From contig NZ_JAATVV010000006.1 of NCBI RefSeq assembly GCF_013184775.1, positions 1-64,000 of the forward strand: 64,000 nt of DNA, in the 5' to 3' direction. This document shows positions 17,820-42,033 of this stretch, piece by piece (within the stretch, counting starts at the first letter, position 1; the number at the start of each line of letters is the position of its first letter). Source of the stretch: Martelella sp. HB161492 (lineage in GTDB: Bacteria; Pseudomonadota; Alphaproteobacteria; Rhizobiales; Rhizobiaceae). The position numbers and the translations under genes were made by a program. The notes beneath the pieces were generated by a model. The model was not told the DNA's origin. It did no database searches and saw nothing but the letters and a program-made list of their open reading frames with translations.

Positions 17820-17823
17820 TCCG

Positions 17824-20435: not shown

Positions 20436-20452
20436 AACGTCAGGAGCTATCC

Positions 20453-26464: not shown

Positions 26465-27472
26465 TCAAGGAGGCGGTGACGCCACCGAGCCACGCTCGAC
26501 GAGGCTGACTGGAATGAAGCGATGTGTCGCGGCCGCATTGGCAGGACCGGCAATGGCGTCCAACGTCGCTGTGGTTAGCGCCGCAAGCGACTGGCTGATG
26601 GTCGTCAGCCGGTGTGACGACCAGGCCGAAATCGGCGCGTCGTCGAAGCCGATCACCGACAGATCGCCGGGGACCGACAGGCCAAGTGCGTGGCGTGCTG
26701 TATTCATCACGCCGAGCGCAATCTCGTCGGTTACACCGAAAACGCCGTCAATGCCCGGCCTGGATAACAGGCCATGCGCGGCGGAAACGCCCGTTTCATA
26801 GGTGTTGCCACCCTTGCTCCAGGCCGTGACCGGAATATTTTCCGCTTCCATCGTCTCGACAAAGGCACGGGCGCGGGCAAGTTTGGCAGAGGTGCGCGAA
26901 GCCGACAGCACCACCGCCACCTGCCGGCATCCGGCCGCAATCAGCCGCTTTGCCGCAAGTGCCCCGCCTGAGGCCGAATCCGCCTCGATCTGGTCGACCA
27001 GACCGATATTGTCCGGCGCCGGGCGGTTGATCAGCACCAGCCTTGTGCCATTGGCGGCGGCAAGGCGCATCAGCCCGTCCGGCACGGCGCCGGAGAGCAG
27101 CACAACCGTGCGAACCCGATATTCCAGAAGGCCCGACAGCGCCGTTTCGACATCGTCGCCCGTTCCGGCCAGGTTGAGCAGCATGCATTGAAGCCCGTTG
27201 GCATTGAGCGCAGCCGTCAGCGCGTCAACCTGCGCTGAAATATAGGGGTTGGACAGGTTGGCACCGACAAGGCCAACCAGATCCGAGCGGTCCTTGTGAA
27301 GCGTGCGCGCCAGCTGATTGACGCGGTAGCCGAGTTCTTCGGCCGCCTGCATTACCCGCGCGCGGGTCTTGGCAGAAACACTGGCGCCATCGGTGAAGGC
27401 GCGCGAAACGGCCGAACGTGAGACGCCGGCCCTCTGGGCCACATCCAGGGCCGAGACAAACTTACCGGCCAT
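26465..27472 (-). CDS. LacI-family transcriptional regulator (2)
   Basis: A 335-residue repressor with helix-turn-helix SALDVAQRAGVSRSAVSRAF (about 5-24) and a sugar-binding-type effector domain (about 60-335). It is the last gene of the minus-strand operon that begins at 32931, and its start lies inside the end of the phosphatase gene (11-bp overlap). The likely target is the perfect 16-bp palindrome at 32987-33002. The start MAGKFVSAL is chosen by family alignment; an in-frame ATG at 27502 would add ten residues. The ribosome site is weak, suggesting coupling. It is not a duplicate of the regulator at 22094. Confidence 0.9.
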   Translation of the reverse strand: MAGKFVSALDVAQRAGVSRSAVSRAFTDGASVSAKTRARVMQAAEELGYRVNQLARTLHKDRSDLVGLVGANLSNPYISAQVDALTAALNANGLQCMLLNLAGTGDDVETALSGLLEYRVRTVVLLSGAVPDGLMRLAAANGTRLVLINRPAPDNIGLVDQIEADSASGGALAAKRLIAAGCRQVAVVLSASRTSAKLARARAFVETMEAENIPVTAWSKGGNTYETGVSAAHGLLSRPGIDGVFGVTDEIALGVMNTARHALGLSVPGDLSVIGFDDAPISAWSSHRLTTISQSLAALTTATLDAIAGPANAAATHRFIPVSLVERGSVASPPP

Positions 27473-28079
27473 GGTCGGGTGTCTCGTGCGGATCATTGCC
27501 AATCAGGCGGAGGCGCTGCACCTCATCGGCGAGCGCCAGCATCGGCGCAAGCGGATAGCTGTCATCAAGCCCGCGCAGGCGGCGCAGATAGCCAAGGGCG
27601 ATCTCGAAATCGGCGAAATCCGCCGTCATGAACCGTGACAGCCAGAGCGCGATCAGCGCGACAGAGCGAGACCGCCCGCCACGGCAATGAACCAGAATAT
27701 GGCCCGGCCTGTGCTTCGGATAATGCGGCTTTGCCGGAACATAGCCGCGCATCAGCGCCTCGATCAGATAGACCGCCGCCGCCATCAGATAGGCATTGTT
27801 GCCCGCGCCATCGATCATGCCGATCTGGTGTCGGCGGATATGGACGCCGTCCTTCAGCATGAGCGGCAGCACAAACATGTTGATCGAGACATTCAGCGTC
27901 TCGGTGATTCCGGCATCAAACAGGCAATCGGCATTCTCGGCGGCGGCGAGATTGCCGAGATAGAGCGTTTTGCCATGCGGGCCGACCTGTTGGACAACCG
28001 GGAAAAGAAGCGGGCGGTCATCCTCGCGGGCTTCGCTTTCCGGCACCTGATCCGGCATTCCGAGCCGCTGTTGCATCAT
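27462..28079 (-). CDS. dual-specificity/tyrosine-phosphatase-like Cys-phosphatase
   Basis: A 205-residue member of the Cys-based phosphatase superfamily. The P-loop HCRGGRSRS gives C132-x5-R138, and D90 in GMIDGAGNN is spaced as the general acid, so the catalytic set is complete. Such enzymes cleave phosphomonoesters of proteins, nucleotides, inositols or sugars. It is encoded 3 bp after the MBL gene and overlaps a LacI gene, inside an ABC importer operon. A small-molecule substrate is therefore more likely than a signalling protein. No secretion signal was seen. Confidence 0.8.
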   Translation of the reverse strand: MMQQRLGMPDQVPESEAREDDRPLLFPVVQQVGPHGKTLYLGNLAAAENADCLFDAGITETLNVSINMFVLPLMLKDGVHIRRHQIGMIDGAGNNAYLMAAAVYLIEALMRGYVPAKPHYPKHRPGHILVHCRGGRSRSVALIALWLSRFMTADFADFEIALGYLRRLRGLDDSYPLAPMLALADEVQRLRLIGNDPHETPDHGR

Positions 28080-28082
28080 GAT

Positions 28083-29108
28083 TCAGATCTCCGTTTCGCG
28101 TTCGAGTCTGAGGCGGGAGCCGAGGGCAGCGCTCAACACCGGTGCCTCTTTCATGTCGACAAAGGCCGGCAGCACCGTTTTGGCGCCGCAATGATCGGCA
28201 AGCGCCAGGATGTCGCGTCGGCGCGGATGAACATTCCAGGCCATCCATTGCGCGTTTCCGCCGTCAATCAGCGCACAGGCCGGCGAGGCTTTGGGAACAT
28301 GGCTCGAGAATATGAAACGAAAGCCGCCGCGCGCAAGCAATTGCCGGGAAAGGCCGCTCTCGGCATTGGAGGCGGTGGCGATAATCACCTGATCAGGCCG
28401 CGCCCGCTTCGCATCCGTCGCGGGCAGGCTGCGGCCGGTTGCGGCGGCAAATTCGGCGGCAACGACGTCGTCCAGCACCACGTCAAGCCCGCATTTCTCC
28501 ATGGCCAGCGCCATATCGGCGCCGCGCCCGGCGGCGGGGCAGCACAGGACCGCACCAGATCGTGCCGCGGCGGCCATGTCATCCATCTGCGCGGCAAGCG
28601 AGGTATCGCGGTCGCCATAGGAGGCGTCGATCAGCAGGGTTGCCGCTGCCGGCATCATGTCGAACGGCATGCCGGGGGATTCCAGGCTGATATCGCCGCT
28701 ATAGATGAACCCGCCGCGTGCCGTTCGCAGGTGAAGCCAGACACCGCCGGGTGCATGGCCGCAACGCCCTGTGGTGAACTGGAGGTCGCCGAGGCGAAAG
28801 GCTCCGGCCTCGGGGATCTCGATCGTCCTGACCGGCCGCTCTGCCGCCGGCAGAAAGCCGAATGTCCTGGCGGTGGCAAGGACCGGTGGATTGCCGATCT
28901 CGCCGAGCCTTGAAAGCGCGCCGGCATGATCGACATGGGCATGGCTGAGAAGCACCGCATCGATCCGCCCGAGACCGGCAAGATCGGGATGTTCGCCAGG
29001 TTCCAGCCCATCGCCGCAATCAAGGAGAATGCGCCGGCCTGCGCTTTCCACCAGAAAGACGGCGGCACTCTTGCGGTTCAGACCGCTGATCACTGTCAGT
29101 CGTGCCAC
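28083..29108 (-). CDS. metallo-beta-lactamase-fold hydrolase, beta-CASP-like
   Basis: A 341-residue protein with a full set of MBL metal ligands: H56-x-H58-x-D60-H61 in LSHAHVDHAG, H118 in CGHAPGG and D139 in YSGD. Beyond residue 175 it shows features like the beta-CASP subfamily (nucleases such as RNase J and CPSF-73): PAAGRGADMALAM resembles motif A, and NVHPRRRDILALADHCGA resembles the C-terminal His region. It should hydrolyse a phosphodiester or phosphate-linked compound. The start is the GTG at 29108, overlapping the permease gene by 13 bp. A frame continues further upstream but only as an antiphase reading of the permease. Substrate unknown. Confidence 0.8.
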   Translation of the reverse strand: MARLTVISGLNRKSAAVFLVESAGRRILLDCGDGLEPGEHPDLAGLGRIDAVLLSHAHVDHAGALSRLGEIGNPPVLATARTFGFLPAAERPVRTIEIPEAGAFRLGDLQFTTGRCGHAPGGVWLHLRTARGGFIYSGDISLESPGMPFDMMPAAATLLIDASYGDRDTSLAAQMDDMAAAARSGAVLCCPAAGRGADMALAMEKCGLDVVLDDVVAAEFAAATGRSLPATDAKRARPDQVIIATASNAESGLSRQLLARGGFRFIFSSHVPKASPACALIDGGNAQWMAWNVHPRRRDILALADHCGAKTVLPAFVDMKEAPVLSAALGSRLRLERETEI

Positions 29109-30838
29109 GGCAGAACACCCTGCGGCAAACGCCGCGCAAAGGTGAGGCTGACGAGCATCAGCGTCAGGATAACAAGCACCATCAGGCAGCCGACGGCGGC
29201 GGCAAGCGTCGAGGACCCGGCCTCTTCCAGAAAGATGATCATCGGTCCGATTGTCTGCGCCCGTGAGGAGACCAGCAGTACCGAGGTCTGGATTTCGTTG
29301 ATCGCCGTCATGAAGACCAGGATGGCCGAGGCGGCAGCGGCCGGGGCCAGAACGGGCAGGATGATATCCTTCAGCCGGGCAAGAAGACTGGCCCCGACCA
29401 CCTGGGCGGCTTCGTCCAATGCGCGTTCGACCTGGGCAAAGCCGCCGAGAATGGGCTGCAGCGACAGCGCCAGATAGTTTGACAGATAGGCAGCAAGGAT
29501 GACCCAGACCGTGCCGTAGAAGCTGATTCCGATCAGTGGCAGCGGCTTCAGGAAAAACAGGATCATCGCCACGCCGATGATGATGCCCGGCAGCGCATAG
29601 GCAAGCTGTGCGGCAAGATGGAGCAACCGCGGCGCCACCCCCTTGCGCCAGGAGAGGAAATAGCCGAGCGCCACGGATACCGGGATCAGGATCGCAACGG
29701 AGATGGTGGTCAGCCACAGGCTGGTGAAGAAGGCCTTGCGGATAGCTGGGTGGTGAAACAGCGCGTTGGCGAAATTCTCGAAGGTCAGCGTGTCGATATT
29801 GAGCGGCTGGCCATAGCCGCGCACCAGCGCGGAGCCTGCAAGCGCTGAAAGCGGCAGCGCCAGCGTGAAAAGCAGATAGGCCCATGCCAGCGCCGTGACA
29901 GGCAGGCGCCAGCGCCCGAGCGGAAAGCGGACGCTGCGTGCCGCACCATCGACGCGCTGATCGCCGGCGCGGCCGAGAAAGGCAGCTGCCGCCATGCCTG
30001 CAATGGTAAGCCCGGCCAGAAGCAGGGCAAGCAGCGCCATATCGTTGAGCGCTGATGGGCCGTAGGAATTCAGTCGCTGGTAGATCAGCGTGATCAGCGT
30101 TGAAACGCGGGCAGGAATGCCAAGCATGGCCTGAATGCCGAAATTGCCGATCGACGAGACGAAGGCGAGGGCGGCGCCGGCAAAGATGCCGCCGCGGATC
30201 AACGGCAGAACCACCGTCATCGTAGCGACCGACGGCCGGGCGCCAACGGCACGGGCAGCTTCGATCAGATCGCCGGGCACGCGTCTGAGATTGGCGCGGA
30301 CCGACAGGAACACCAGCGGAGCATTGTAAAGGCCAAGCAGCAGGATGATGCCGCCTTCGGAATAGAGCGGATGGCGCATGCCGGACGACAGTGACAGACC
30401 CAGCGCTCCCAAAACCGGGCTTGACGGCGAGAAGGCCTGGATCCAGGCCAGTGCGATCACCTGCGGCGGGATCATCAGCGGCAGGACAAAGCCGAATACC
30501 CAGGCCACCCGTCCCCGCATGTCACTGAGCCCGACGACCAGTGCGGCAAGTGTACCGGCAAAAGTCGAAAGCGCCGTTGCGGCAATGGCGATGGTGATCG
30601 TATTGAGGATTGCCGTCATCACGCGGCGACCGCCGAGCACATCCGCTATGCGGGCAGGATCAAGGCCGGTATCGGTGAAAAGCGCAGCGTAGACCAGGCG
30701 GCCAAGCGGCAGGATCGACAGCACGCCGACAAAGGTGACCAGTGCCAGTATCAGCGTGCGTTCATGCCTCAACAGGCCCGTGACGCTGGCAAGCGTCCCG
30801 AAAGGACGCTCGCCGTTGATGGATGTGGACAGGTCCAT
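29096..30838 (-). CDS. ABC transporter permease, fused two-domain AfuB/FbpB type
   Basis: A 580-residue inner-membrane protein with about 12 helices and two permease domains, each with an ATPase-docking loop: EAARAVGARPSVATMTVVLP and EAAQVVGASLLARLKDIILP. This fused design is typical of importers of iron(III), hexose phosphates (AfuB) and 2-aminoethylphosphonate. It lies 5 bp after the binding-protein gene and overlaps the MBL gene. The neighbouring phosphoesterases make a phosphorylated ligand more likely than iron. Confidence 0.9.
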   Translation of the reverse strand: MDLSTSINGERPFGTLASVTGLLRHERTLILALVTFVGVLSILPLGRLVYAALFTDTGLDPARIADVLGGRRVMTAILNTITIAIAATALSTFAGTLAALVVGLSDMRGRVAWVFGFVLPLMIPPQVIALAWIQAFSPSSPVLGALGLSLSSGMRHPLYSEGGIILLLGLYNAPLVFLSVRANLRRVPGDLIEAARAVGARPSVATMTVVLPLIRGGIFAGAALAFVSSIGNFGIQAMLGIPARVSTLITLIYQRLNSYGPSALNDMALLALLLAGLTIAGMAAAAFLGRAGDQRVDGAARSVRFPLGRWRLPVTALAWAYLLFTLALPLSALAGSALVRGYGQPLNIDTLTFENFANALFHHPAIRKAFFTSLWLTTISVAILIPVSVALGYFLSWRKGVAPRLLHLAAQLAYALPGIIIGVAMILFFLKPLPLIGISFYGTVWVILAAYLSNYLALSLQPILGGFAQVERALDEAAQVVGASLLARLKDIILPVLAPAAAASAILVFMTAINEIQTSVLLVSSRAQTIGPMIIFLEEAGSSTLAAAVGCLMVLVILTLMLVSLTFARRLPQGVLPWHD

Positions 30839-30843
30839 CTCAA

Positions 30844-31818
30844 TCAGAGCCCGAAGATCTCGGAGAATTTGGCCGTGACCGCATCATTGTTCTTCACCGC
30901 CGCATCGACATCATAGCCAAGCAGCTTCATCGATGAGAGATCGGGATAGCCGTCCGGACCGGCAACGCCGGGCATCAGCGGAATGTAGCCCTGTTCGGCA
31001 ACCAGTTCCTGGCCCTTTTCCGACAGCAGGAAATCGACAAATTTCTTGGCAGCCTCGGCATGTTCGGTGGTCTTCATGATCGCGACCGGCTCACCGATGA
31101 AGGAGACACCGTCCTTCGGCGCGATATAGTCGACCGGTGATCCGTCGGCCTTGGCCTTCAGCGCATTGGCATCGACGATGATGGCATATTTCGCCATGCC
31201 CGAGGCAACAGCCTTGGTGCCCGGACCATTGCCGCCCTCAGGCACGATATCGAGCTTGTTCAGGCCTTCATAAAAGGCCCAGCCGATGGCCGGGTCATTG
31301 ATCAGCGCATGAAGGTGATTGAGCGCCGCACCCGAGTAGAGCGGACTTGGAACGGCAATCTGACCGCGGTTCTCTTCCTTCAGCAGATCATTCCAGCTTT
31401 CCACCGGTTCGGCATTTTCGGTGTTATAGGCAATGCCGGTGGTGATGGCCTTGGTGCCGAAATAGGTCATGTCCTTGTCATAGGTGGCCGGATCATAATC
31501 CGCGACCGGTGCATCCGGATAGGCCATCAGCATGCCTTCGGCCTTCAACGTGCCAAGGTTGATCGGATCGGCGACGAGCAGCACATCAGCCTGAACCTTG
31601 CCGGCTTCCTGTTCCGCACGCATGACATTCATCAGCGCCGATGTGCCATTGCGGGTCCAGTTGACCTTGATATCGGGGTTCAGCGCTTCAAAGGCATCAA
31701 CGGTCTGCTGCGCCACTTCCGGCGGCTGGCTGGTGTAGAGTGTGATTGTCTCTTCGGCATGGGCCGCCGAAAAGGCGAGCGTGGAGACGGCGGCAAGGGC
31801 AAGCATGCGGATCTGCAT
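30844..31818 (-). CDS. ABC transporter substrate-binding protein, AfuA/PhnS/FbpA-like
   Basis: A 324-residue periplasmic binding protein. The signal peptide ends at FSAAHA-EE (about 21). ITLYTSQPPEVAQQTVDAF is the standard start of the iron/phosphonate-type family; GTSALMNVM and TGIAYNT follow. The twin Tyr residues that bind Fe3+ in FbpA are not evident, so an anionic organic ligand is plausible. An ATG four codons downstream is an alternative start. GAGGA precedes the chosen one. It follows the ATPase gene by 24 bp. Confidence 0.88.
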   Translation of the reverse strand: MQIRMLALAAVSTLAFSAAHAEETITLYTSQPPEVAQQTVDAFEALNPDIKVNWTRNGTSALMNVMRAEQEAGKVQADVLLVADPINLGTLKAEGMLMAYPDAPVADYDPATYDKDMTYFGTKAITTGIAYNTENAEPVESWNDLLKEENRGQIAVPSPLYSGAALNHLHALINDPAIGWAFYEGLNKLDIVPEGGNGPGTKAVASGMAKYAIIVDANALKAKADGSPVDYIAPKDGVSFIGEPVAIMKTTEHAEAAKKFVDFLLSEKGQELVAEQGYIPLMPGVAGPDGYPDLSSMKLLGYDVDAAVKNNDAVTAKFSEIFGL

Positions 31819-31842
31819 GGGAAAATCCTCGAGTGAAATGAA

Positions 31843-32931
31843 CTAGAGCAGGACTTTGGCGGATTGGGGGTCCTCAAGGACCCAGCCGTCGGTCAGCGTG
31901 ACGGCTACGCGCTGCCCGGGCGAAAGCGAGGCCGGGGCAGGGACGTTCATGAAAAGTGTGGTATCAAGATCGGGACCGGCGCCAAGCTCGACGCGCAGCA
32001 TCTCGCCGCGATAGGTCAGGCGACGGATCACGGCGTCGATGCCCCCGGTCTCCAGGCAAAGCCTGAGATCGGCCGGATGAAAGGCAACGCGCGCCTTCGC
32101 TGCGTGGGCCCGGCTGGCGCGGCAGCGCAATAGAACATCTTGCCCGAAAAACCGCGCGCGGGCATGGCCATTGCCATCGGGCCAGACCTCTTCGATCGTG
32201 GCAATCTGACCGTCACCGATAAACCCGGCGACCATCTCATTGGCCGGCTCGCGATAGAGCTGTGACGGTGTGGCGAACTGGGCGATCTGCCCTCTGTCCA
32301 TCACGGCAACGCGATCGGCGAGCGCCAGGGCTTCAGCCTGATCATGGGTGATATAGAACATGGTGGCGCCGCTCTCGCGGTGAAAGCGCGAAAACTCCGC
32401 TTCCATTTCACCGCGCAGATGCACATCGAGATTGGCGAGCGGCTCATCCAGAAGCACGATGCCTGCCTCCATGGCGAGGCAGCGCGCCAGCGCCACCCTT
32501 TGCCGCTGGCCGCCGGAAAGCGCCGCCGGCCGGCGGTCGGCGAGATCGGAAAGCCCGACGGTCTCCAGCACCCGCGCGGTGCGCCGATCACGGTCCGCCC
32601 GGGAAAAGCCCTTGATCCTGAGGCCGTAGGAAACATTGCCGGCAACGCTCATATGCGGCCAGAGCGCGTAATTCTGAAAGACGACACCAATGCCGCGATC
32701 TTCCGGAGCGACATGCTGTCCCTTGCCAGAAACCAGCCGGTCACCAAGCCGGATCGCGCCATGATCAATCGGCTCGAAACCGGCAAGGGCGCGCAGAAGC
32801 GTGGTCTTGCCGCAGCCTGACGGACCGAGCACGGCAACGAAAGAGCCCGCGGGGATCGAAAGCGAGATACCGCGCAGGACGGTCGTCACACCAAATGACT
32901 TTTCGACATTTTCGATTTCGATCGTGCTCAT
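31843..32931 (-). CDS. ABC transporter ATP-binding protein (AfuC/FbpC/PotA-like)
   Basis: A 362-residue ATPase, first gene of the minus-strand importer operon. Walker [10 protein letters not shown] (about 37-45), Q-loop VFQNYALWPHM, signature LSGGQRQR, Walker B IVLLDEPLANLD and H-loop [10 protein letters not shown] are intact. A C-terminal TOBE domain (about 270-350) follows. Its promoter region carries a 16-bp palindrome 56 bp before the start, probably for the LacI regulator at the far end of the operon. Confidence 0.92.
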   Translation of the reverse strand: MSTIEIENVEKSFGVTTVLRGISLSIPAGSFVAVLGPSGCGKTTLLRALAGFEPIDHGAIRLGDRLVSGKGQHVAPEDRGIGVVFQNYALWPHMSVAGNVSYGLRIKGFSRADRDRRTARVLETVGLSDLADRRPAALSGGQRQRVALARCLAMEAGIVLLDEPLANLDVHLRGEMEAEFSRFHRESGATMFYITHDQAEALALADRVAVMDRGQIAQFATPSQLYREPANEMVAGFIGDGQIATIEEVWPDGNGHARARFFGQDVLLRCRASRAHAAKARVAFHPADLRLCLETGGIDAVIRRLTYRGEMLRVELGAGPDLDTTLFMNVPAPASLSPGQRVAVTLTDGWVLEDPQSAKVLL

Positions 32932-32986
32932 TTCTCAACCTGAACTGTGGGCCTGCACCGTCGCCATGACAGATGCCGGAGCCGTT

Positions 32987-33002
32987 TTGCACAGCTGTGC
33001 AA
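32987..33002 (-). promoter_or_regulatory. 16-bp palindromic operator before the importer operon
   Basis: TTGCACAGCTGTGCAA is a perfect palindrome, 56-71 bp upstream of the ATPase start. Length, symmetry and position fit a LacI-family operator, and the operon's last gene encodes such a regulator. Confidence 0.7.
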
Positions 33003-33112
33003 TGCGTCGGCGCCATCAATGCGCCAGCGATGTGACAGTTCGATTTCAGAGATTTTGCGGTTCTGTGAAAATTGCCATCAGCCGGGCTGCACCGGCCGGA
33101 GCCTTCACCGGA

Positions 33113-34258
33113 TCATCGAAACAGCCGGGTGCGGATCGGCAGCAAAGCGGCGCCCAGAACGTTTGGATCGGTTCCGATCGCGCTGATCAGCAATTCCGGT
33201 TCCGGCAGTGGGATGCCATAATCATCCAGTCCGCGCGGACTTGCAGCCGCCGCCAGCCGCTGGCGCAGATCCAGCGGCGCCTCGCCGCCAAAGACGACGG
33301 CGGCCGGATCGACAATACCAGACAGCGCCCTGAGGATCTGATCGAGCGCCGGTGTGACACGGGTGACCCAGCGCTCGATCACCGGCCAGGACGGGTCATA
33401 TCGCGCCTTGAGCGCCCCGACGGTTGCAATGTCGTAGCCCTCATCCTGCAGCATCGCGATCAGCGTCTTGAGCGCCGGACGTCGCTGGCTTTCCTCATCG
33501 GTATAGATTGAAGACACTTCCGCCGCATTCATATGGTGGCCGGTAAAGGGAGCGCCATTCAGGACGAGGCCGCCGCCAAAACCGAGATTGATTGACAGAT
33601 AGGCAAAATTATCGAAGCGGCGCCCGGCGCCGACCCAGTTTTCAGCCTCTGCGCCCAGCGTCGCATTGTTTTCCGCCATCAGCGGAAAGGGAAATATGTC
33701 ACCGAAAAAGGTCGAAACATCACGCCCGTGCCAGGCATCCAGCCGGCGCGGCGTGACGAAGGCAAGCCCTGGCTTGCGCCGATAGCCCTGCATCGAGACG
33801 CCGATACCCGCAATCCGCTCCGGCGGCAGGCCGAGCGCGCGGATCATCGCCGGGACCGTGGCGCGGGCGGCATCGCGCACAGCCTCGGGCGCACCGGGAT
33901 CCGCTTCCAGCACGCTCAGATGCAGGATATCGCCGAGCAGATTGGTGACGGCGATGCGCACGTCTTCGGTATCAATGGCAAGGCCGATGCCAAAGGCGCC
34001 ATTCGGTTCGAGCGCCAGCATCGGGCTCGGCTTGCCGCGACCGGTGATCTGTGGCGCCTCGAGCCGCAGCAGCCCGCGCGTGATCAGATCCTCGGCCAGA
34101 CGGTGGACGCTTTGCTGCGACAAGGGCGTGGTTTCGGTCAGCTCCGACCGGGCCACGCAGCCCTGGCGCCGCACAGCATCGAGCACAAGGGCACCGCTGC
34201 GCCCGATCGCAAAGATCGAGGCTGCATTCTGCTCACTGTTGCCGTCGCCGAAGACCAT
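33113..34258 (-). CDS. ROK-family transcriptional regulator lacking the zinc cysteines
   Basis: A 381-residue ROK protein with an N-terminal winged helix (LTETTPLSQQSVHRLAEDLITRGLL, about 40-65) and a sugar-kinase-like domain (from about 90; ENNATLGAEAENWVGAG, SINLGFGGGLVLNG). The Cys-rich zinc motif found after the GHxxxAGE region in most ROK proteins is replaced by GHHMNAAEVSSIYTDEES without cysteines. The start MVFGDGN at 34258 is chosen because longer frames would fill the divergent promoter region; ATGs at 34324 and 34378 exist. It is divergent from a second importer operon, which it probably controls. Confidence 0.87.
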   Translation of the reverse strand: MVFGDGNSEQNAASIFAIGRSGALVLDAVRRQGCVARSELTETTPLSQQSVHRLAEDLITRGLLRLEAPQITGRGKPSPMLALEPNGAFGIGLAIDTEDVRIAVTNLLGDILHLSVLEADPGAPEAVRDAARATVPAMIRALGLPPERIAGIGVSMQGYRRKPGLAFVTPRRLDAWHGRDVSTFFGDIFPFPLMAENNATLGAEAENWVGAGRRFDNFAYLSINLGFGGGLVLNGAPFTGHHMNAAEVSSIYTDEESQRRPALKTLIAMLQDEGYDIATVGALKARYDPSWPVIERWVTRVTPALDQILRALSGIVDPAAVVFGGEAPLDLRQRLAAAASPRGLDDYGIPLPEPELLISAIGTDPNVLGAALLPIRTRLFR

Positions 34259-34331
34259 GCCCGAATCTGCCCGTCCTGCATTCGTCACGCTTATTTTTGA
34301 GCATGAAGCGAAATCAAAATCCATTGTCACA

Positions 34332-34345
34332 TTAATTATACTTAA
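34332..34345. promoter_or_regulatory. AT-rich palindrome between ROK gene and importer operon
   Basis: TTAATTATACTTAA is symmetric at 12 of 14 positions. It sits in the only AT-rich stretch between the divergent genes and overlaps a minus-strand TATAAT (34340-34335). ROK regulators often bind AT-rich dyads, so this is a candidate operator controlling both directions. Confidence 0.5.
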
Positions 34346-34383
34346 ACTGAGTAATAAAGCCTCGTTCAACAGAGGCAAGGCTT

Positions 34384-35436
34384 ATGACTGGCATTTCCGC
34401 CGAAAATCTCGCTATGCGCTTCGACCGGTTCACCGCTGTCGATGACGTCAGCTTTTCCGTGAAATCCGGTGAATTCGTCACCCTGCTCGGTCCTTCGGGC
34501 TGCGGCAAGACCACGCTTTTGAAGATCATATCGGGATTTTTGACGCCGAGCGCCGGCCGGATCTTCCTTGGTGGCGAAGATGTCACCCGGATACCGCCAG
34601 AACAGCGCGATACTGCGCTCTGCTTCCAGTCTTACGCCCTGTTTCCGCATCTCAGCGTTGCCGAAAATCTGGCGTTTGGGCTGAAGCAGAAGAAGGTTCC
34701 GCTGCGCGAGCGTAAGGCCAGGATTGGTGACATGGCCGAGAAACTGGGGCTGACGGCACAGCTTGCCAAGTTGCCCAACCAGCTTTCCGGCGGCCAGCAG
34801 CAGCGCGTGTCGCTGGGTCGGGCTCTGGTCATGCGCCCCGGCGTGATCCTGTTTGACGAGCCGCTTTCCAATCTTGATGCCAAGCTGCGCGATCAGGTGC
34901 GCATCGAAATCCGGCGGATCCAGCAGGAATCGCAGCTGACGGCGATCTATGTCACCCATGATCAGGCCGAGGCGCTGGCCATGTCCGACCGGATTTTCGT
35001 GATGAATGCGGGCCGGGTGGAACAGGCCGACACGCCGGAAGGTCTCTACCATGCGCCCCGCACCCGTTTTGTCGCCGATTTCATCGGCGGGGCGAATATT
35101 CTTGACGGTCAGATCGAATGGAAGAGTGCCGGGCGCGCTGTCATCCACACGCCGATCGGGTCACTGCCAATGCCGCTCAGCCCGGCCGAAGGCGACAAGG
35201 CCTATGCGATCTGCTGGCGCCCGGAAGCTGCCCGCATCCTGCCGCATGCCTGCGAGGGCGCGCTGTCCGGCCGCGTCGTCAACCGTGCCTTCCAGGGACA
35301 GTTTACCGATCTCATGGTCGAGACCGCCGGCATTTTCTATCGCATCCAGACCCGCGAGAGCAGGATCGGCGAAGGCGATATGATCCACTTCGACCTGGCG
35401 CCGGAAGCTGTGATCCCGCTGGGAACAGAACAATGA
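34384..35436 (+). CDS. ABC transporter ATP-binding protein, PotA-like
   Basis: A 350-residue ATPase. Walker [10 protein letters not shown] (about 38-46), Q-loop [11 protein letters not shown], signature LSGGQQQR, Walker [14 protein letters not shown]-loop [10 protein letters not shown], then a TOBE domain. It is the first gene of the plus-strand importer operon and overlaps the permease gene by 4 bp (ATGA). AGGCAAGG provides a modest ribosome site. It is the separate ATPase of this operon and not interchangeable by position with the one at 31843. Confidence 0.92.
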
Positions 35437-36287
35437 CGGCGCGACGCTGGCTCGTCATCATCGCCCTGCTGATGCCCGGTCTCGGGCTGATCCTGGCGCT
35501 GATCGGTACGGTGGTCTATATCGCGATCGCCCAGTCTTTCGGCTATTTCAGCTTCTCCGGCGGCAGCCGGTTCTCCACCGCCTTCTGGAGCGAAGTCTAT
35601 GGCCGCAATCTGTTTGCCCGTTCGGTGCGCTACTCGCTCTATATCGGCACGGTCAGCGCCATATTGTCCGTCGCGCTCGCCTATCCGCTGGCCATCTGGT
35701 TGAGAAAGCCCTTTCCCGGATCGATGACCATCGGTGCCATGCTGAAAGCACCGATGCTGGTGCATGGGCTGGTCGCCGCCTTTCTGCTGCTCAACATCAT
35801 TTCCTATCACGGTCTTCTCAACCAGTTCATGCAGGGGCTGGGGCTCTGGAGCGGTCCGCACCGGCTGCAAAATGACCGCCACGGCATTGCGGTTCTGGTG
35901 CTGGAAGTGTGGAAGAACCTGCCCTTCGCGCTGCTGCTCTTGACCGGCGCCGTTCAGGGGATCTCCGATGATGTGCTCGATGCCGCCCGCGACATGGGGG
36001 CCGGCGCGTGGGATCGCTTCCGCAAGGTGATCGCGCCGCTTTCCGTGTCGGCGATGCAGGCGGCCCTGGTGATCATCTTCATCGGCGCACTGGCCGATTT
36101 CTCGTTCCAGACCGTGGTCGGCCCGACCAATGTTCAGTCGCTGGCGCAGCTGATGGTGTTCTTCAAGGGGCGCGGTGACTGGCATTCGGCCGCCGTGGTC
36201 GGGGTTTCGATGATGCTCCTGGCCCTGATCGGCTCGACGCTTCTGGCTGCCCTCACGCGTCTCATCCTCAAGGGACGGCTCAAATGA
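35433..36287 (+). CDS. ABC transporter permease (first subunit), PotB/YnjC-like
   Basis: A 284-residue inner-membrane permease with six predicted helices and the loop LDAARDMGAGAWDRFRKVIAP (about 182-202) for ATPase contact. The ATG at 35433 overlaps the ATPase stop, and its own end overlaps the next permease by 4 bp. A longer upstream frame is only antiphase reading of the ATPase gene. Confidence 0.88.
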   Translation: MTARRWLVIIALLMPGLGLILALIGTVVYIAIAQSFGYFSFSGGSRFSTAFWSEVYGRNLFARSVRYSLYIGTVSAILSVALAYPLAIWLRKPFPGSMTIGAMLKAPMLVHGLVAAFLLLNIISYHGLLNQFMQGLGLWSGPHRLQNDRHGIAVLVLEVWKNLPFALLLLTGAVQGISDDVLDAARDMGAGAWDRFRKVIAPLSVSAMQAALVIIFIGALADFSFQTVVGPTNVQSLAQLMVFFKGRGDWHSAAVVGVSMMLLALIGSTLLAALTRLILKGRLK

Positions 36288-37111
36288 CCGGCAGAACGCT
36301 CAATACCGTGCTGATCATTCTGCTGTCGATCGGCTTTACCGTCTGGCTGGTTCTTCCCTTCGGCATGGCCGTCCTGTGGTCGCTGGTTGATCCGTCGAAG
36401 CCCTGGACTGCCGATACGCTCTTGCCTCCCGCCATGTCACTCGTCCGCTGGAGCGACATGTGGGCGCATTCCGGCCTCAAACAGGCGCTCCTGACATCCT
36501 ATATGCTGGCGCCGTCAGCGGCGGCGACCTGCCTGCTTTTCGCCTTGCCGACGGCGCTTGCGCTGGGCCGCTTTCGCTTCCCCGGCCGGGAGGTCGCCAA
36601 GATCTTGTGCCTGCTGCCGCTGGTGGTTCCGGGCTTCGTCACCTCGATCTTCTTTACCGCGCTGCTGTTTGCGCTGGGCTTACAGAACTTCCGTTTCGCG
36701 GCAATCGTCTTTGCCCATGCGGTGCTGTTCATGCCCTATGCGATCCGGATCATGACGGTGAGCTTCGAACAGGTGCGCCAGGATCATATCGATGCCGCGC
36801 GCGATCTTGGCGCCAGCCCCTGGGCACGGCTATCCGTCGCCTATCTGCCGGCGCTGAAGCCCGGCATTTACGCCACGCTCCTGATCGTCTTCATCCAGTC
36901 CATCGAAGAATTCGCCATCGCCTATATCGTCGGCTCGCCCGAAATCGTGACGATCCCGACCCTGCTTTATGCAGCCCTTGGCCAGGACTTTGTCCGTCCC
37001 AATGCCGCCGTGCTGTCCCTCATCCTCGTCGTCCCCAATGTCTTGTTGATGCTGATCCTGGAAAAACTGCTGAAATCAGCCAATCCGACGCTTGCCTCGG
37101 GCAAGGGATGA
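36284..37111 (+). CDS. ABC transporter permease (second subunit), PotC/YnjC-like
   Basis: A 275-residue permease, six helices, docking loop IDAARDLGASPWARLSVAYLP (about 167-187). It pairs with the preceding subunit. The charged patch SIEEFAIAYIVGSPEIVTIP near residue 205 is typical of spermidine/putrescine and thiamine-type permeases. It ends 42 bp before the binding-protein gene. Confidence 0.88.
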   Translation: MTGRTLNTVLIILLSIGFTVWLVLPFGMAVLWSLVDPSKPWTADTLLPPAMSLVRWSDMWAHSGLKQALLTSYMLAPSAAATCLLFALPTALALGRFRFPGREVAKILCLLPLVVPGFVTSIFFTALLFALGLQNFRFAAIVFAHAVLFMPYAIRIMTVSFEQVRQDHIDAARDLGASPWARLSVAYLPALKPGIYATLLIVFIQSIEEFAIAYIVGSPEIVTIPTLLYAALGQDFVRPNAAVLSLILVVPNVLLMLILEKLLKSANPTLASGKG

Positions 37112-37153
37112 TGCGGGGTACCCGCCGCACCACCGAAACGGAGATCATCCGAA

Positions 37154-38260
37154 ATGCTCAAATCCCTTCTTCTCGCCACCGCCGCTCTTGCGATCGGCAC
37201 CACCGCCGCTCTTGCCGACGATCTTTCCGCCAAAAACTGGGATGACATCGTCGCCCAGGCCAAGCAGGAAGGCGAACTGAACTGGTATGTCTGGTATTTC
37301 CAGGACGATTTCCGCAAGGCCGTCGCGCCCTTCGAGGAAAAATACGGCATCAAGGTCAATATTCCGGCCGGTGGCACCGCCTCTGGCAATGCCGACAAGC
37401 TGCTTGCTGCCAGCAATGCCGACAAGGGCGACATCGACGTTTTCGCCTGGGGATTCGATGACATGGCGACGCTGGATTATGCGAAAATGTTCCAGAAGCT
37501 TTCCATGCTCCCCGAAGACGCCGGCCGTGTCGGCAAGGTCAATGCCGTGGATGGCGATGGCTATGTTCTGGCCTATTGGGGCAACCAGACCGGGATCGCC
37601 TATGATCCGGCCAAGGTCGATGCCGCAGACCTGCCGCAGACGCCGGATGATTTCGCCGCCTTCTGGAAGGATCATCCCGGCCAGTTCGGCTTCAATTACG
37701 AAAATGGCGGCTCCGGTCCGTCCTTCTTCAAGAATGTGCTGCGCGTCGTCTCCGGCGATGACTTCTCCGATGGCACCGTCACCGATGCCAGGCTTTCGGC
37801 GCTCGAACCGGGCTATGATCTGTTCAACACCTACGCCAAGGACTATGTGATCACCACCTCGAATGCCGACAGCATCATCCGCATTTCCGATGGTGAGCTG
37901 GCGATGGCGCCGGCCTGGGAAGACCATCTTTCCAGCCTGCAGAATTCCGGCGAAGTGCGCAAGGATCTGAAGCTCTACATCCCGTCCATGGGCATGAATG
38001 GCGGTGGCAATGGCGTGGCAGTTCCGCTCAATGCGCCGCATCCGGCCGCGGCCGCCCTGTTTATCGCCTGGCTGACCTCACCGGAAACCCAGACCATGTT
38101 CAACACCACATTCGGCACGGCGCCGATGAACGCCAATGCCGATGACAGCCACGCGCTGATTCCCAACAGCCAGCGCCAGTACCGGGTTGCCGATGGCGCC
38201 CAGCCCTTCCGCAAGGCGGTTGAAGACGGCTTCGTCGACAACGTCATTCTCAAGCGCTAG
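37154..38260 (+). CDS. ABC transporter substrate-binding protein, PotD/YnjB-like
   Basis: A 368-residue periplasmic protein with signal peptide ending ALA-DD (about 22). QEGELNWYVWYFQDDFRKAV and VLAYWGNQTGIAYDPAK are as in the YnjB/PotD/thiamine-binding-like family. GGNGVAVPLNAPHPAAAALFI marks the C-terminal lobe. It is last of the four transporter genes and ends just before a strong hairpin. The ligand cannot be told from sequence; small polar or phosphorylated ligands are common for this class. Confidence 0.88.
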   Translation: MLKSLLLATAALAIGTTAALADDLSAKNWDDIVAQAKQEGELNWYVWYFQDDFRKAVAPFEEKYGIKVNIPAGGTASGNADKLLAASNADKGDIDVFAWGFDDMATLDYAKMFQKLSMLPEDAGRVGKVNAVDGDGYVLAYWGNQTGIAYDPAKVDAADLPQTPDDFAAFWKDHPGQFGFNYENGGSGPSFFKNVLRVVSGDDFSDGTVTDARLSALEPGYDLFNTYAKDYVITTSNADSIIRISDGELAMAPAWEDHLSSLQNSGEVRKDLKLYIPSMGMNGGGNGVAVPLNAPHPAAAALFIAWLTSPETQTMFNTTFGTAPMNANADDSHALIPNSQRQYRVADGAQPFRKAVEDGFVDNVILKR

Positions 38261-38281
38261 CGCATCGGCGCGATTGTCGAC

Positions 38282-38338
38282 AAGGCATGATGCCTTCACC
38301 GTGTAGCACTTCCGGCGGCAACGCACCTGCCGCCGGAA
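38282..38338 (+). terminator. double hairpin after the binding-protein gene
   Basis: AAGGCAT-G-ATGCCTT (38282-38296) is followed by a perfect 11-bp stem, TTCCGGCGGCA (38310-38320) with TGCCGCCGGAA (38328-38338), loop of seven. No U-run follows, so it may only reduce transcription into the DUF1868 gene or protect the transporter mRNA. Confidence 0.6.
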
Positions 38339-38388
38339 ATTGCGGTCTCATCCCGGCCACCTCGAAAATAACAACAAAAGATTTCGCC

Positions 38389-39159
38389 ATGACCTCCAGA
38401 CAGTTTCATCCAAAAAGAACCGAACCGCCCGCCGATCTCTGGCTGAACAGCCTCGTCGCCGGGGGCACGTCCCAATCCCTTCCCCCCAGTATCACCGCTG
38501 CCGGAAAGGGCGGCAAATTCGCCACCGATGGCACGGTTCTGCCCTATCCCGGCAATACCTTCATCTGCCATATCGACAAGGCGTCGCCGGAATTCGATAT
38601 TCTTCGCCAGTTACAGGGCGAGATCCGCAAGCTTCCCGCCGCTTCCTGTTTCAGCTTCCTGCCGCCGGAAAGCCTGCATATGACGGTGTTTTGTGGTGTT
38701 TCGGGCAATCCGCTGACCACCGATGGCTGGCCTGAAAATGTCGCGGACGATGTCTCGCTTGCCGATATCACCGACTATTTCTACAAGGCCGCCATGACGC
38801 TGAACGGTTTTGCCGGCGTTACCGTGCGCGCTGATCATCTCAAGGCCGGCTATTCGATCCATGCCGAACCGGCAGATCAGGAAAGCTTCGATGCGCTGTG
38901 GCGGATGCGCGATGCGCTGCGAGCGGTCACCGGCCTTTCCCGCGATGACCATGACGGCTACCAGTTCCACATTTCCTTTGGCTACCGCATCCGGCATATG
39001 CCGAAGTCCATGGCCGAAGAGCATATCACCGCCGTGACCGCGCTGTTTGCGGCAGCGGCGCCGAGACTTCAGGCGATCCGTCTCGGTCCGGTCGAATTCT
39101 GCACCTTCGAAAACATGCATCATTTCGAACCGGTGGCCCATCTGCTGCCCAGGCGCTGA
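38389..39159 (+). CDS. DUF1868 protein, 2H phosphoesterase superfamily
   Basis: A 256-residue protein with the two signature motifs of 2H phosphoesterases: H97-M-T99 in LHMTVFCGV and H194-I-S196 in FHISFGY. DUF1868 belongs to this superfamily, whose studied members cleave cyclic nucleotide phosphates or 2'-5' linkages. It follows the plus-strand importer genes, separated by hairpins, so it is either the last operon gene or weakly expressed on its own. The start MTSRQFHP at 38389 lacks a clear Shine-Dalgarno. No signal peptide was seen. It may open a cyclic phosphate in the imported compound. Confidence 0.82.
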   Translation: MTSRQFHPKRTEPPADLWLNSLVAGGTSQSLPPSITAAGKGGKFATDGTVLPYPGNTFICHIDKASPEFDILRQLQGEIRKLPAASCFSFLPPESLHMTVFCGVSGNPLTTDGWPENVADDVSLADITDYFYKAAMTLNGFAGVTVRADHLKAGYSIHAEPADQESFDALWRMRDALRAVTGLSRDDHDGYQFHISFGYRIRHMPKSMAEEHITAVTALFAAAAPRLQAIRLGPVEFCTFENMHHFEPVAHLLPRR

Positions 39160-39796: not shown

Positions 39797-42010
39797 ATGC
39801 GTAGAGACGAACAGGCAGTGCGGGCAACCGCAACTGCCGAGAGCGAAGCCATGTCTTTTTTTGAGGCGGTCGATGCTCTCCGCAATGGCGGAGAGGCAGA
39901 CGCATTGGCATCCCGGATCTATGCCCAGCTTGACGCTGATGAAAGACTGGCGTTGCTGCATGGCGATACGCCCTTCTGGGAGGGGCGTGGCGAGATCATG
40001 GATCACGGTTACAACCATCGCCCCTATGTCATGGGTTCCAACGCCCGTCTCGGCATTCCCGGCATCCGCTTCATTGACGGGCCGCGTGGCGTTGTCGTCG
40101 GCAAGGCAACGGCGTTCCCGGTTTCGATGGCGCGTGGCGCATCGTGGAATGTCGCGCTTGAACAGGAAATCGGCCGTGCCATCGGCCTTGAGGTCCGCGC
40201 ATCGGGCGGGAATTTTTTCGGCGGCGTCTGTATCAACCTGCCGCGCCATCCGGCCTGGGGCCGGATTCAGGAAACCTATTCGGACCAGTCGGTTCTGATT
40301 GGCGCGATGGGGGCAGCGCTGGTCCGCGGGACAAAGCCGAATGCCATGCCCTGCATCAAGCATTATGCCCTGAATTCCATGGAAAATGCACGGTTCGATG
40401 TCGACGTGAAATGCGATCAGGACACCATGCAGGAGGACTATCTGCCGCATTTCAAGCGGGCGATGGAAGCGGGTGCTGCCTCTGTCATGTGCGCCTATAA
40501 CCGCGTCAATGGTGACTGGGCGAGTGACAGTGAAAACCTGCTGACCGAGATCCTGCGGGATCAATGGGGTTTCGACGGTTTCGTCATCAGCGATTTTGTC
40601 TGGGCGATCCGCGACGCGGCAAAATCGCTGAAGGCCGGGCTTGATCTCGAAGCCCCCTTTGCCCAGCTCAGGGCCGACCGGCTGCCGGCGGCACTTGAAA
40701 ACGGCGCTGCGGACTGGGACATGGTCGAAACCGCAGCCCGGCGTCTGATTGCAACGCAATTGCGCCATTTCGCCGGACGGGATACAGACGAGCCCGGCAC
40801 GGACATCATCGCCAGTCCCGCCCACCGCGCCTTATCGCGCCGGGCGGCGGTGAAATCCATGGTGCTGCTGCGCAACGAGACTGTCGAGGGCCGGCCGGTC
40901 CTGCCATTCGACGCCGCAAGCCTTGCCAGCATCGCCGTGGTCGGCCGGCTTTCGGATCTGCAGAACACCGGCGACAAGGGCTCGTCCAACGTCCACGCCG
41001 CCCATGTCGTCACGCCGCTGGAAGGCATCCGGGCGGCCTTGCCCGGGGCCAAGATCTATCACGCGGACGGTTCCGATGCCGCTCAGGCCGCCGCGCTCGC
41101 GGCAAAGGCATCCGTTGCCGTCGTCGTCGTCGGCTATACGGCGGCAGAAGAAGGCGAATGGGTCAATGGCCGCATCTATGGCCGCGATGATCTGATGAAG
41201 CTCTATCCCGCTCCGGAAAGCGATGCCGATCACGCGGTGCTCGACACGATGATGGACCGGCTGAAGGCGGCCGAAGGCAAGCCGGAGATCGGCGGAGACC
41301 GCAAGAAACTCGGTCTTCTGCCCGAGGCCGTTGCGCTGATCCGCAAGGTCAGGGCTGCCAATCCCCGCACCGTCGTCGTCGTCCAGACGGCAGGTGCGGT
41401 GATGATGGCGGACTGGCACGAGGATGCACCGGCGCTGGTGCTTGGCTGGTATGCTGGCATGGAAGGCGGCCACGCGATCGCGGACCTTCTGCTCGGCCGC
41501 GAGAATTTCGCCGGCCGTCTGCCCTATGCCATCGCCAGAAGCGAGGCGGATCTGCCCTATTTCGACGCTGCGGCCACCGAAATCACCTATGACCGCTGGT
41601 ATGGCCAGCGCCGCATTGCCCATGAGGGCAAGACCGCGCTCTATCCGCTGGGTTTCGGCCTTTCCTACACATCCTTCGCCATTGAGAGCGTCAGCGTGAC
41701 GGCGGGAGATGAGACGGCCGCGACCGTTTCCGTGACGGTCGCAAACACCGGTGATCGCGCCGGACAGGCCAATATCCAGATCTACGGCACCCGGCTTGAC
41801 GGCGAACGGGCAGGGGAGCGCGAGCTGATCGGCTTTGCCGTCCTTGATCTCGCCGCCGGTCAGACAGCACGGACCACAGTCATCACAACCCTTCAACCGC
41901 TCATGCGCTTTGATGCAGCGAAAAGCTGCTTCCATTTGCCGGCGGGTGAAATCCGCATTGAAGCAGCTCGTTTCTGGGGTGACCCGGAGGCTGCGGAAAC
42001 ATCAATCTGA
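39797..42010 (+). CDS. glycoside hydrolase family 3 beta-glucosidase
   Basis: A 737-residue GH3 enzyme that removes non-reducing beta-linked sugars. The barrel domain holds FIDGPRGV, KHYALNSMENAR and the nucleophile D266 in FVISDFVWAIRD. The second alpha/beta domain (about 345-560) and a C-terminal fibronectin-III-like domain (about 625-737) complete the usual layout. No signal peptide, so it acts on imported oligosaccharides or glycosides. GGGAGG precedes the ATG. It is first in a group with an MFS carrier that probably brings in its substrate. Confidence 0.93.
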   Translation: MRRDEQAVRATATAESEAMSFFEAVDALRNGGEADALASRIYAQLDADERLALLHGDTPFWEGRGEIMDHGYNHRPYVMGSNARLGIPGIRFIDGPRGVVVGKATAFPVSMARGASWNVALEQEIGRAIGLEVRASGGNFFGGVCINLPRHPAWGRIQETYSDQSVLIGAMGAALVRGTKPNAMPCIKHYALNSMENARFDVDVKCDQDTMQEDYLPHFKRAMEAGAASVMCAYNRVNGDWASDSENLLTEILRDQWGFDGFVISDFVWAIRDAAKSLKAGLDLEAPFAQLRADRLPAALENGAADWDMVETAARRLIATQLRHFAGRDTDEPGTDIIASPAHRALSRRAAVKSMVLLRNETVEGRPVLPFDAASLASIAVVGRLSDLQNTGDKGSSNVHAAHVVTPLEGIRAALPGAKIYHADGSDAAQAAALAAKASVAVVVVGYTAAEEGEWVNGRIYGRDDLMKLYPAPESDADHAVLDTMMDRLKAAEGKPEIGGDRKKLGLLPEAVALIRKVRAANPRTVVVVQTAGAVMMADWHEDAPALVLGWYAGMEGGHAIADLLLGRENFAGRLPYAIARSEADLPYFDAAATEITYDRWYGQRRIAHEGKTALYPLGFGLSYTSFAIESVSVTAGDETAATVSVTVANTGDRAGQANIQIYGTRLDGERAGERELIGFAVLDLAAGQTARTTVITTLQPLMRFDAAKSCFHLPAGEIRIEAARFWGDPEAAETSI

Positions 42011-42033
42011 TACTGACGAATGGGAGGAAAACC

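Follow-up and report, generated by a model that had tools for sequence, protein, structure and literature searches.

A candidate phosphodiester-import cassette with an exchangeable phosphatase gene in Martelella and other proteobacteria

Introduction

Published excerpts on the agrocinopine (acc) operon of Agrobacterium Ti plasmids describe an importer (AccA-E), a putative phosphodiesterase (AccF) and a putative phosphatase (AccG), together with a repressor, AccR, that senses the sugar phosphate formed by AccF (PMC4526662). So far as those excerpts go, this operon offers the closest described logic to a minus-strand gene cassette in Martelella sp. HB161492, which we analyze here within a stretch of 64,000 nucleotides (hereafter called the window) that forms the start of one contig (NZ_JAATVV010000006.1) of the 5.28-Mb genome. 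Both operons appear to bring together an ATP-binding cassette (ABC) importer with its binding protein, a phosphodiesterase and a phosphatase, and the likeness is one of logic. The Martelella operon differs from acc, as excerpted, in having an AfuA/PhnS2-like importer, a beta-CASP-type metallo-beta-lactamase fold (MBL) protein as the presumed diesterase, a variable phosphatase, and a LacI-family regulator that is replaced by DeoR or sugar-binding types in relatives.

Other importers resemble individual parts of the cassette. PhnS2 of the PhnS2T2U2 system, a type to which we take AepXVW to belong, is the best NCBIfam match of the cassette's substrate-binding protein (SBP), but the cassette scores far below the family cut-offs and includes no phosphonate enzymes. 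AepXVW, a 2-aminoethylphosphonate importer, requires both PhoBR and its substrate for expression, as the available part of that report states (PMC9311074). Related SBPs also serve the hexose-phosphate importer AfuABC and the pyridoxal-phosphate importer P5PAB. Most of their phosphate-side positions appear to be kept in the Martelella protein, whereas the AfuA sugar ligands are lost, and the excerpts of the two reports make no mention of linked hydrolases (PMC4546632, PMC8427247).

The original prediction for this locus, made from the letters of the window, held that the minus-strand operon and a neighboring plus-strand importer operon carrying a 2H phosphoesterase jointly import, open and dephosphorylate a phosphodiester. 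We find that the minus-strand operon is a genuine cassette that occurs well beyond its own genome. It probably serves the cell under phosphate starvation, when a small phosphodiester would be taken up, cut to a monoester, and made to yield inorganic phosphate (Pi) internally.

Results

A conserved cassette of importer, MBL and phosphatase genes

The minus operon spans positions 26465-32931 and is composed of the following genes, given in the order of transcription.

31843-32931, minus strand: ABC importer ATPase, UgpC/PhnT2-like (PF00005, 120 bits; also matched in NCBIfam; conserved in loci L008-L018)
30844-31818, minus strand: SBP whose start resembles a signal peptide (RxGT, SG and GNG do not vary among 35 aligned sequences)
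29096-30838, minus strand: permease with two transport halves, PhnU2-like (PF00528 in two stretches; NCBIfam PhnU2 108 bits, below cut-off)
28083-29108, minus strand: small beta-CASP-type MBL, predicted cytoplasmic phosphodiesterase (GTG start at 29108, overlapping the permease end)
27462-28079, minus strand: Cys-phosphatase of dual-specificity type (HCRGGRSRS, D90)
26465-27472, minus strand: LacI-family regulator of the cassette (start uncertain: ATG at 27472 or 27496, or TTG at 27502)

Gaps of 24 and 5 bp separate the first three genes and 3 bp lie between the MBL and phosphatase genes, whose other neighbors (the permease and LacI genes, respectively) overlap them. Genes and residues cited in the original prediction are present in both operons, including H56-x-H58-x-D60-H61, H118 and D139 of the MBL (numbered from the GTG), C132 and R138 (CRGGRSR) with D90 of the phosphatase, and H97-M-T and H194-I-S of the 2H protein (numbered from the Met at 38389). 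A crude hydropathy test indicates a signal-like start in the SBPs and none in the MBL, phosphatase and 2H proteins.

When the combination of MBL, phosphatase and importer genes was sought in other genomes, the minus operon recurred as a conserved cassette. At least an SBP and a permease adjoin the MBL gene in 50 of the 53 MBL loci read (a raw count that includes L025, L055 and L056, where no fitting ATPase was seen), and a phosphomonoesterase gene adjoins it in 45. The original prediction was to be abandoned if its phosphoesterase genes were not conserved with the importers; for the minus operon, the phosphatases are conserved in this way. A phosphatase-based scan of species genomes yielded eight confirmed loci, and the order of the six genes is preserved in every one of them; in L010 and L015, one gene is broken across two frames. 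Genes of L010, L015 and L025 that matched in two reading frames were kept unchanged, and L057 stops at its contig end.

Carriers of the cassette are found among alpha- and gammaproteobacteria and include Martelella, Phaeobacter, Paracoccus, Azospirillum, Halomonas and one Enterobacter plasmid. The nearest named relative for the cassette genes is Martelella alba, whose cassette proteins are 87-97% identical to those of the window. On plasmids of Alloyangia, Paracoccus and Pannonibacter, all five structural genes are retained; the LacI gene comes at the end, lies upstream or is missing. Searched with the MBL alignment (E <= 1e-40), a sample of 385 genomes from the class gave 8 with a match and a sample of 398 from the phylum gave 17; the two samples overlap, and both counts include the Martelella genome itself. 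An MBL match was also found in 105 plasmid records (71 by another query), from which those behind L016-L018, L022-L029 and L090-L099 were picked by eye for variety and read. A DNA-level comparison of the Enterobacter MBL gene with E. coli genomes gave no match. Among the titles and abstract openings listed in a search of open-licence literature, none describes this gene set, which is weak evidence of absence.

Some records stand apart from this pattern. The cassettes of L011 (Rhodobacterales bacterium BW5) and L015 (Marinicella sp. W31) fall among those of Martelella on the MBL tree, and these could be misnamed records or cases of recent transfer. The MBL gene is found without the usual importer in L095 (Falsirhodobacter), where it adjoins a LacI gene, and in L096 (Rhizobium leguminosarum), where there are two distant ABC ATPase-like matches.

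The phosphatase gene is exchanged

Four unrelated phosphomonoesterase families, in five arrangements, fill the phosphatase slot, and the importer and MBL stay constant. The gene beside the MBL encodes a Cys-phosphatase in 19 loci, a histidine phosphatase in 9, a histidine phosphatase together with a PNKP-type HAD protein in 10, a HAD protein alone in 3, and SurE in 4. Despite these unrelated neighbors, 35 aligned SBPs share 41-97% identity with that of the window. The histidine phosphatases belong to branch 1 (104-121 bits, three tested), the HAD proteins to the polynucleotide-kinase phosphatase family (88-109 bits against a cut-off of 27.6, three tested), and SurE scores 152 bits (one tested). 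The Cys-phosphatase of the window matches Pfam DSPc at 26.9 bits (E 4.7e-6), which is below the gathering cut-off of 33.5, and carries the dual-specificity signature HCX5R, present as HCRGGRSRS, with the general acid D90. In L099, which we counted in favor of our interpretation, a Na/Pi cotransporter gene directly follows surE.

On an MBL tree of 50 rows (without L013, L057 and L090, the last being a near-copy of L023), the six phosphatase labels, 'none' included, require 9 changes. SurE and HAD alone each form a single clade, the Cys-phosphatase label requires 2 changes, each of the histidine-phosphatase labels 4, and 'none' 5. This distribution suggests a few old phosphatase exchanges and some later gains or losses. 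Many phosphomonoesterases can presumably carry out a last dephosphorylation step, which could explain why four unrelated families occupy the slot. The product of the MBL is likewise expected to be a phosphomonoester, because the pattern of exchange would otherwise be hard to explain. Thus, the importer, probable phosphodiesterase and phosphomonoesterase of the minus operon are borne out as one conserved unit, and the exchange itself was overlooked by the original prediction.

Related importer operons occur in which no MBL gene is annotated. One Klebsiella pneumoniae plasmid (pKP121-2, L079, 801-9555 of the locus) carries in one row the genes for a KdgM-type porin, an AppA-like phytase, an importer labeled 'iron ABC transporter', a fused inositol-monophosphatase/Cys-phosphatase, and a 'substrate-binding domain-containing protein'. 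This looks like an inositol-phosphate scavenging island that is a cousin of the cassette. Two Sinorhizobium plasmids (L019, L080) and Thioclava (L021) carry an importer with an inositol monophosphatase and a relative of the Cys-phosphatase.

The MBL resembles a small beta-CASP nuclease

The MBL matches Pfam Lactamase_B_2 at 54.7 bits, above the cut-off, and the ribonuclease TTHA0252 at an E value of about 1e-13. An AlphaFold model built from 9 sequences has a mean predicted local distance difference test (pLDDT) score of 84. A Foldseek search with this model listed 50 PDB matches, all beta-CASP nucleases by title, with TM-scores of 0.71-0.81 over the query; TTHA0252, CPSF73, IntS11 and RNase J rank at the top, and Cas14 is also among them. 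The MBL is therefore predicted to fold like a small beta-CASP nuclease, and phosphodiesterase is its likeliest activity.

The metal motifs HxHxDH, the later His and the Asp are invariant in 35 aligned sequences. So are D161 (in D161-A-S-Y) and H294 (in NVH294-P), numbered from the GTG, at what we take to be motif A (Asp/Glu) and motif B (His) of beta-CASP proteins. These features are shared with TTHA0252, CPSF73, RNase J and IntS11. The MBL differs from such nucleases in its genomic setting within a nutrient importer operon, in its length (about 341 residues versus 431 in TTHA0252, or 90 shorter), and in a Phe at motif C. That place, which presumably holds His or Val in beta-CASP proteins, was located by eye against TTHA0252.

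The binding protein and its probable phosphate side

The SBP is related to AfuA, P5PA and PhnS2. Its best NCBIfam match, PhnS2 (TIGR03261), scores 145.2 bits against a cut-off of 392.75, and PhnT2 and PhnU2 are the second-best matches of the ATPase (302 versus 458 bits) and the permease (108 versus 593), both likewise below cut-off. As excerpted, the AfuA report assigns H205, D206 and E229 as sugar ligands, which its authors used to find homologues (PMC4546632). In our alignment, for which chain numbers were taken as paper numbers plus 2, these residues face A217, N218 and I241, and none of the three sugar ligands is kept. An AfuA hexose-phosphate importer in the strict sense was rejected on this ground.

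The phosphate side of AfuA and P5PA includes Ser37, Ser148, Gly149, Thr150 and Gly185 in the excerpted description (PMC8427247). The SBP counterparts are T59, S162 and G163, with A164 in place of Thr150, and a GNG segment (196-198) that lies only near Gly185. Most of these counterparts are invariant in the 35 sequences. The Tyr-Tyr pair that we take to be the iron ligands of FbpA ferric-binding proteins has no Tyr at the aligned place. The original prediction would have been undone by an iron-binding SBP, and the absent pair speaks, at the level of sequence, against such a protein. With the sugar ligands lost, the phosphate side mostly kept and the iron pair missing, a phosphate ester other than glucose 6-phosphate would fit the SBP best. 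A structure prediction for the SBP (pLDDT 40, with 8 close rows) was not used.

Candidate control by phosphate starvation and LacI

Three elements lie in the minus operon's own upstream region of 181 bp (32932-33112), where PHO-type 11-bp direct repeats and a perfect 16-bp palindrome precede the ATPase gene.

32987-33002, no strand: perfect palindrome TTGCACAGCTGTGCAA, predicted operator of the cassette LacI
33032-33049, minus strand: PHO-box-like repeat CTGAAAT-N4-CTGTCAC, beginning 118 bp before the ATPase start
33054-33071, minus strand: second, weaker repeat pair TTTTCAC-N4-CCGCAAA, in the same 11-bp register as the stronger repeat

No second exact copy of the palindrome occurs in the genome. 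Among 10 aligned relatives, all 16 bases are present in 6 and the inner 14 in 1, one base is changed in 2, and three are changed in 1. It is probably read as an operator by the operon's own LacI protein.

A PHO box is described in the available text as two 11-nucleotide direct repeats (PMC4415409). Our score covers two CTGTCAY-like half-sites, 4 bp apart, in the 300 bp upstream of each cassette. Its weights derive from the E. coli consensus, and both the weights and the 11.5 mark were fixed after repeats had been seen in 11 of 39 rows (the window, L008-L016 and L073), 10 of which reach the mark. The 39 rows exclude L025, L055-L057 and L090-L099; L025, L055, L056 and L091-L099 were scored later, and L057 and L090 are unscored.

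The mean score is 11.28 for the 39 cassettes versus 9.32 for 345 control upstream regions of the same loci. Scores of at least 11.5 occur in 21 of the 39 cassettes, compared with 1 of 39 on the other strand and 4 of the 345 controls, and other half-site spacings bring only 0-2 of the 39 to this mark. Reducing each group to one mean leaves 12 of 24 at or above 11.5 (Mann-Whitney p 3e-10 versus 152 intergenic controls). The box of the window alone has a shuffle p of 0.01, the window being among the rows seen before scoring. Four later-scored loci whose importer is absent or atypical have values between 7.8 and 9.8. Two perfect PHO boxes occur in the Martelella genome, one before an alkaline phosphatase gene and one before a ThrE exporter gene, and a box with one mismatch precedes an acid phosphatase gene. 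Both the probable phosphate-starvation control and the predicted LacI operator were overlooked by the original prediction. Upstream of the cousins that have no annotated MBL, the score is strong for Thioclava L021 (13.1) and weak for Sinorhizobium L019 and L080 (9.0 and 9.3).

The plus-strand 2H operon

The plus operon carries an ATPase, two permeases, an SBP and the 2H protein, in this order, and is preceded by a regulator gene on the opposite strand.

33113-34378, minus strand: ROK-family regulator, probably of the plus operon (PF00480; a relative adjoins the second 2H cassette, L077)
34384-35436, plus strand: second-importer ATPase, part of a separate module
35427-36287, plus strand: second-importer permease
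36284-37111, plus strand: second-importer permease
37154-38260, plus strand: second-importer binding protein (NCBIfam PRK11622, 51 bits, below the cut-off of 203)
38389-39159, plus strand: 2H phosphoesterase DUF1868/PF08975, a relative of Atu0111 (PDB 2fsq); a longer start at 38287 is possible

The two operons had been described as divergent, and they do lie on opposite strands, but the ROK gene sits between them and there is no common divergent promoter region. The 2H protein scores 89.1 bits for PF08975 (2H-phosphodiest, cut-off 21) and has two HxT/S motifs. Its operon adjoins the MBL cassette in only 1 of 8 other loci (M. alba), shows no PHO box that stands out clearly (score 10.1, with a shuffle p of 0.10), and is duplicated as a ROK-importer-2H set 65 kb away on the same contig (L077, G000:C49:97000-114000). 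The second copy has its own ROK gene and a Na/Pi cotransporter gene (PF02690) between the binding-protein and 2H genes. On the adjacency, duplication and PHO-box evidence, the single three-step pathway across both operons that had been proposed was rejected. The best interpretation of the 2H operon is as an additional diester-import module that works independently of the cassette.

The 2H family occurs in 17 of 199 genomes of the order, including the Martelella genome, and this importer set accompanies it in 2 (L133, L134) of 17 2H stretches read from other genomes. In Alloyangia and R. etli (L100, L101), the 2H gene is shared but stands in a different, Ugp-like importer operon with the order ROK, SBP, permeases, UgpC, 2H and inositol monophosphatase; the importer family is another one, and the window's plus operon has no monoesterase gene after 2H. 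In Alloyangia, the gene for PhoX comes next after 2H and inositol monophosphatase.

Elsewhere in the window, the stretch 16045-22039 encodes two GMC oxidoreductase-domain proteins (18933-20435 and 20444-22039) behind an ABC permease and ATPase, and a family 3 glycosidase and an MFS transporter are encoded downstream of the 2H gene (39797-43311). Rfam and tRNA scans of the window gave no matches.

Discussion

The conserved linkage, the phosphatase exchange, the predicted MBL fold, the mostly kept phosphate-side SBP positions, the PHO-box enrichment and the conserved palindrome were observed here, and they are probably best explained by the following scheme. Under phosphate starvation, PhoB, together with ligand-driven release of LacI from the palindrome, would switch the cassette on. 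The SBP would capture a small phosphodiester in the periplasm, most probably bearing a sugar, polyol or nucleoside moiety, and the ABC importer would carry it across uncleaved. The beta-CASP-type MBL would then, in the cytoplasm, hydrolyze the diester or open a cyclic phosphate to yield a phosphomonoester, from which the neighboring phosphatase would free Pi. Of the original interpretation, the minus operon as an import-and-cleave unit is retained, and the joint pathway with the plus operon is not.

Several observations weigh against this proposal. Among the 53 MBL loci, 5 have importer genes but no recognized phosphatase, 2 lack such an importer, and 1 is cut by a contig end. The MBL has F316 at the motif C place rather than His or Val (invariant in 18 sequences and nearly so in 35), and its metal site may thus be unusual. 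The PHO score, with weights and threshold set after sight of 11 rows, stays below 11.5 in 18 of the 39 cassettes, and only 11 of the 28 rows unseen before scoring reach this mark. Among 8 importer cassettes scored later, 3 reach it, and another spacing scores higher in 4. The Martelella genome as a whole shows no enrichment of the one-mismatch PHO pattern (16 versus 17 for a reversed control), one of its two perfect boxes precedes the ThrE-type amino acid exporter gene (L086, G000:C3:184500-190500), and its pstS-like gene has no strong PHO box.

A special case of phosphodiester import, which we hold only tentatively, is that the imported compound resembles a nucleotide (a 2',3'- or 3',5'-cyclic nucleotide, a dinucleotide or short RNA) and that the beta-CASP enzyme cleaves it before nucleotidases remove the phosphate. 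The beta-CASP fold, the optional HAD protein that scores above the cut-off of the polynucleotide kinase phosphatase family, and the annotation of SurE as a 5'/3'-nucleotidase are all consistent with this possibility. However, the regulators are of the kinds associated with sugars (LacI, DeoR/GlpR and sugar-binding regulators), generalists also occur in the phosphatase families, and, judging by product names, no nucleoside-catabolic gene consistently stands beside the annotated cassettes. The fuller and somewhat more doubtful version is that a beta-CASP nuclease fold has been recruited as the constant catabolic enzyme of a widespread PhoB-controlled cassette that takes up intact cyclic nucleotides or short pieces of nucleic acid, four unrelated phosphatase families having been swapped at the nucleotidase step. 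It is also conceivable, but unlikely, that a phosphomonoester such as a sugar or inositol phosphate (e.g., from phytate) is imported and used by the phosphatase alone, leaving the MBL another job such as lactone hydrolysis or regulation. The SBP superfamily does include importers of hexose phosphates and pyridoxal phosphate, and relatives of the phosphatase sit with inositol monophosphatase in importer operons with no annotated MBL and, on the Klebsiella plasmid, with an AppA-type phytase. Against this stand the constancy of the MBL while phosphatases change and the 50 listed fold neighbors, all beta-CASP nucleases by title. An inositol-phosphate substrate suits the cousins that have no annotated MBL better than it suits the cassette of the window.

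Import of a phosphonate, by a branch of the 2-aminoethylphosphonate system PhnS2T2U2, seems very unlikely. Although PhnS2, PhnT2 and PhnU2 rank as described above and the excerpted PhoBR control of AepXVW offers a parallel, the candidate was rejected because all three matches fall far below their cut-offs; furthermore, the cassette has no gene for cleaving C-P bonds, and the MBL and phosphatases do not belong to phosphonatase families. Least credible of all is an iron or polyamine importer with chance passenger genes. Plasmid records call the permease an 'iron ABC transporter permease', and the PDB matches of the SBP include iron-binding proteins, but the FbpA Tyr pair is missing from the SBP alignment, on which basis iron was rejected, and the phosphatases are linked to the importer across classes and PHO boxes are present.

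If import of a small phosphodiester is indeed the function of the minus operon, alpha- and gammaproteobacteria would have in this cassette a further route of diester uptake. Many natural organic phosphorus compounds are diesters, and to our knowledge uptake of an intact diester followed by internal cleavage has been described for few compounds. The beta-CASP fold is otherwise known from RNA and DNA processing. The cassette has been hidden under labels such as 'iron ABC transporter', 'MBL fold metallo-hydrolase' and 'dual specificity protein phosphatase', and it would represent a pathway in which one step is filled by unrelated enzymes, a feature that may point to the chemistry of the missing substrate.

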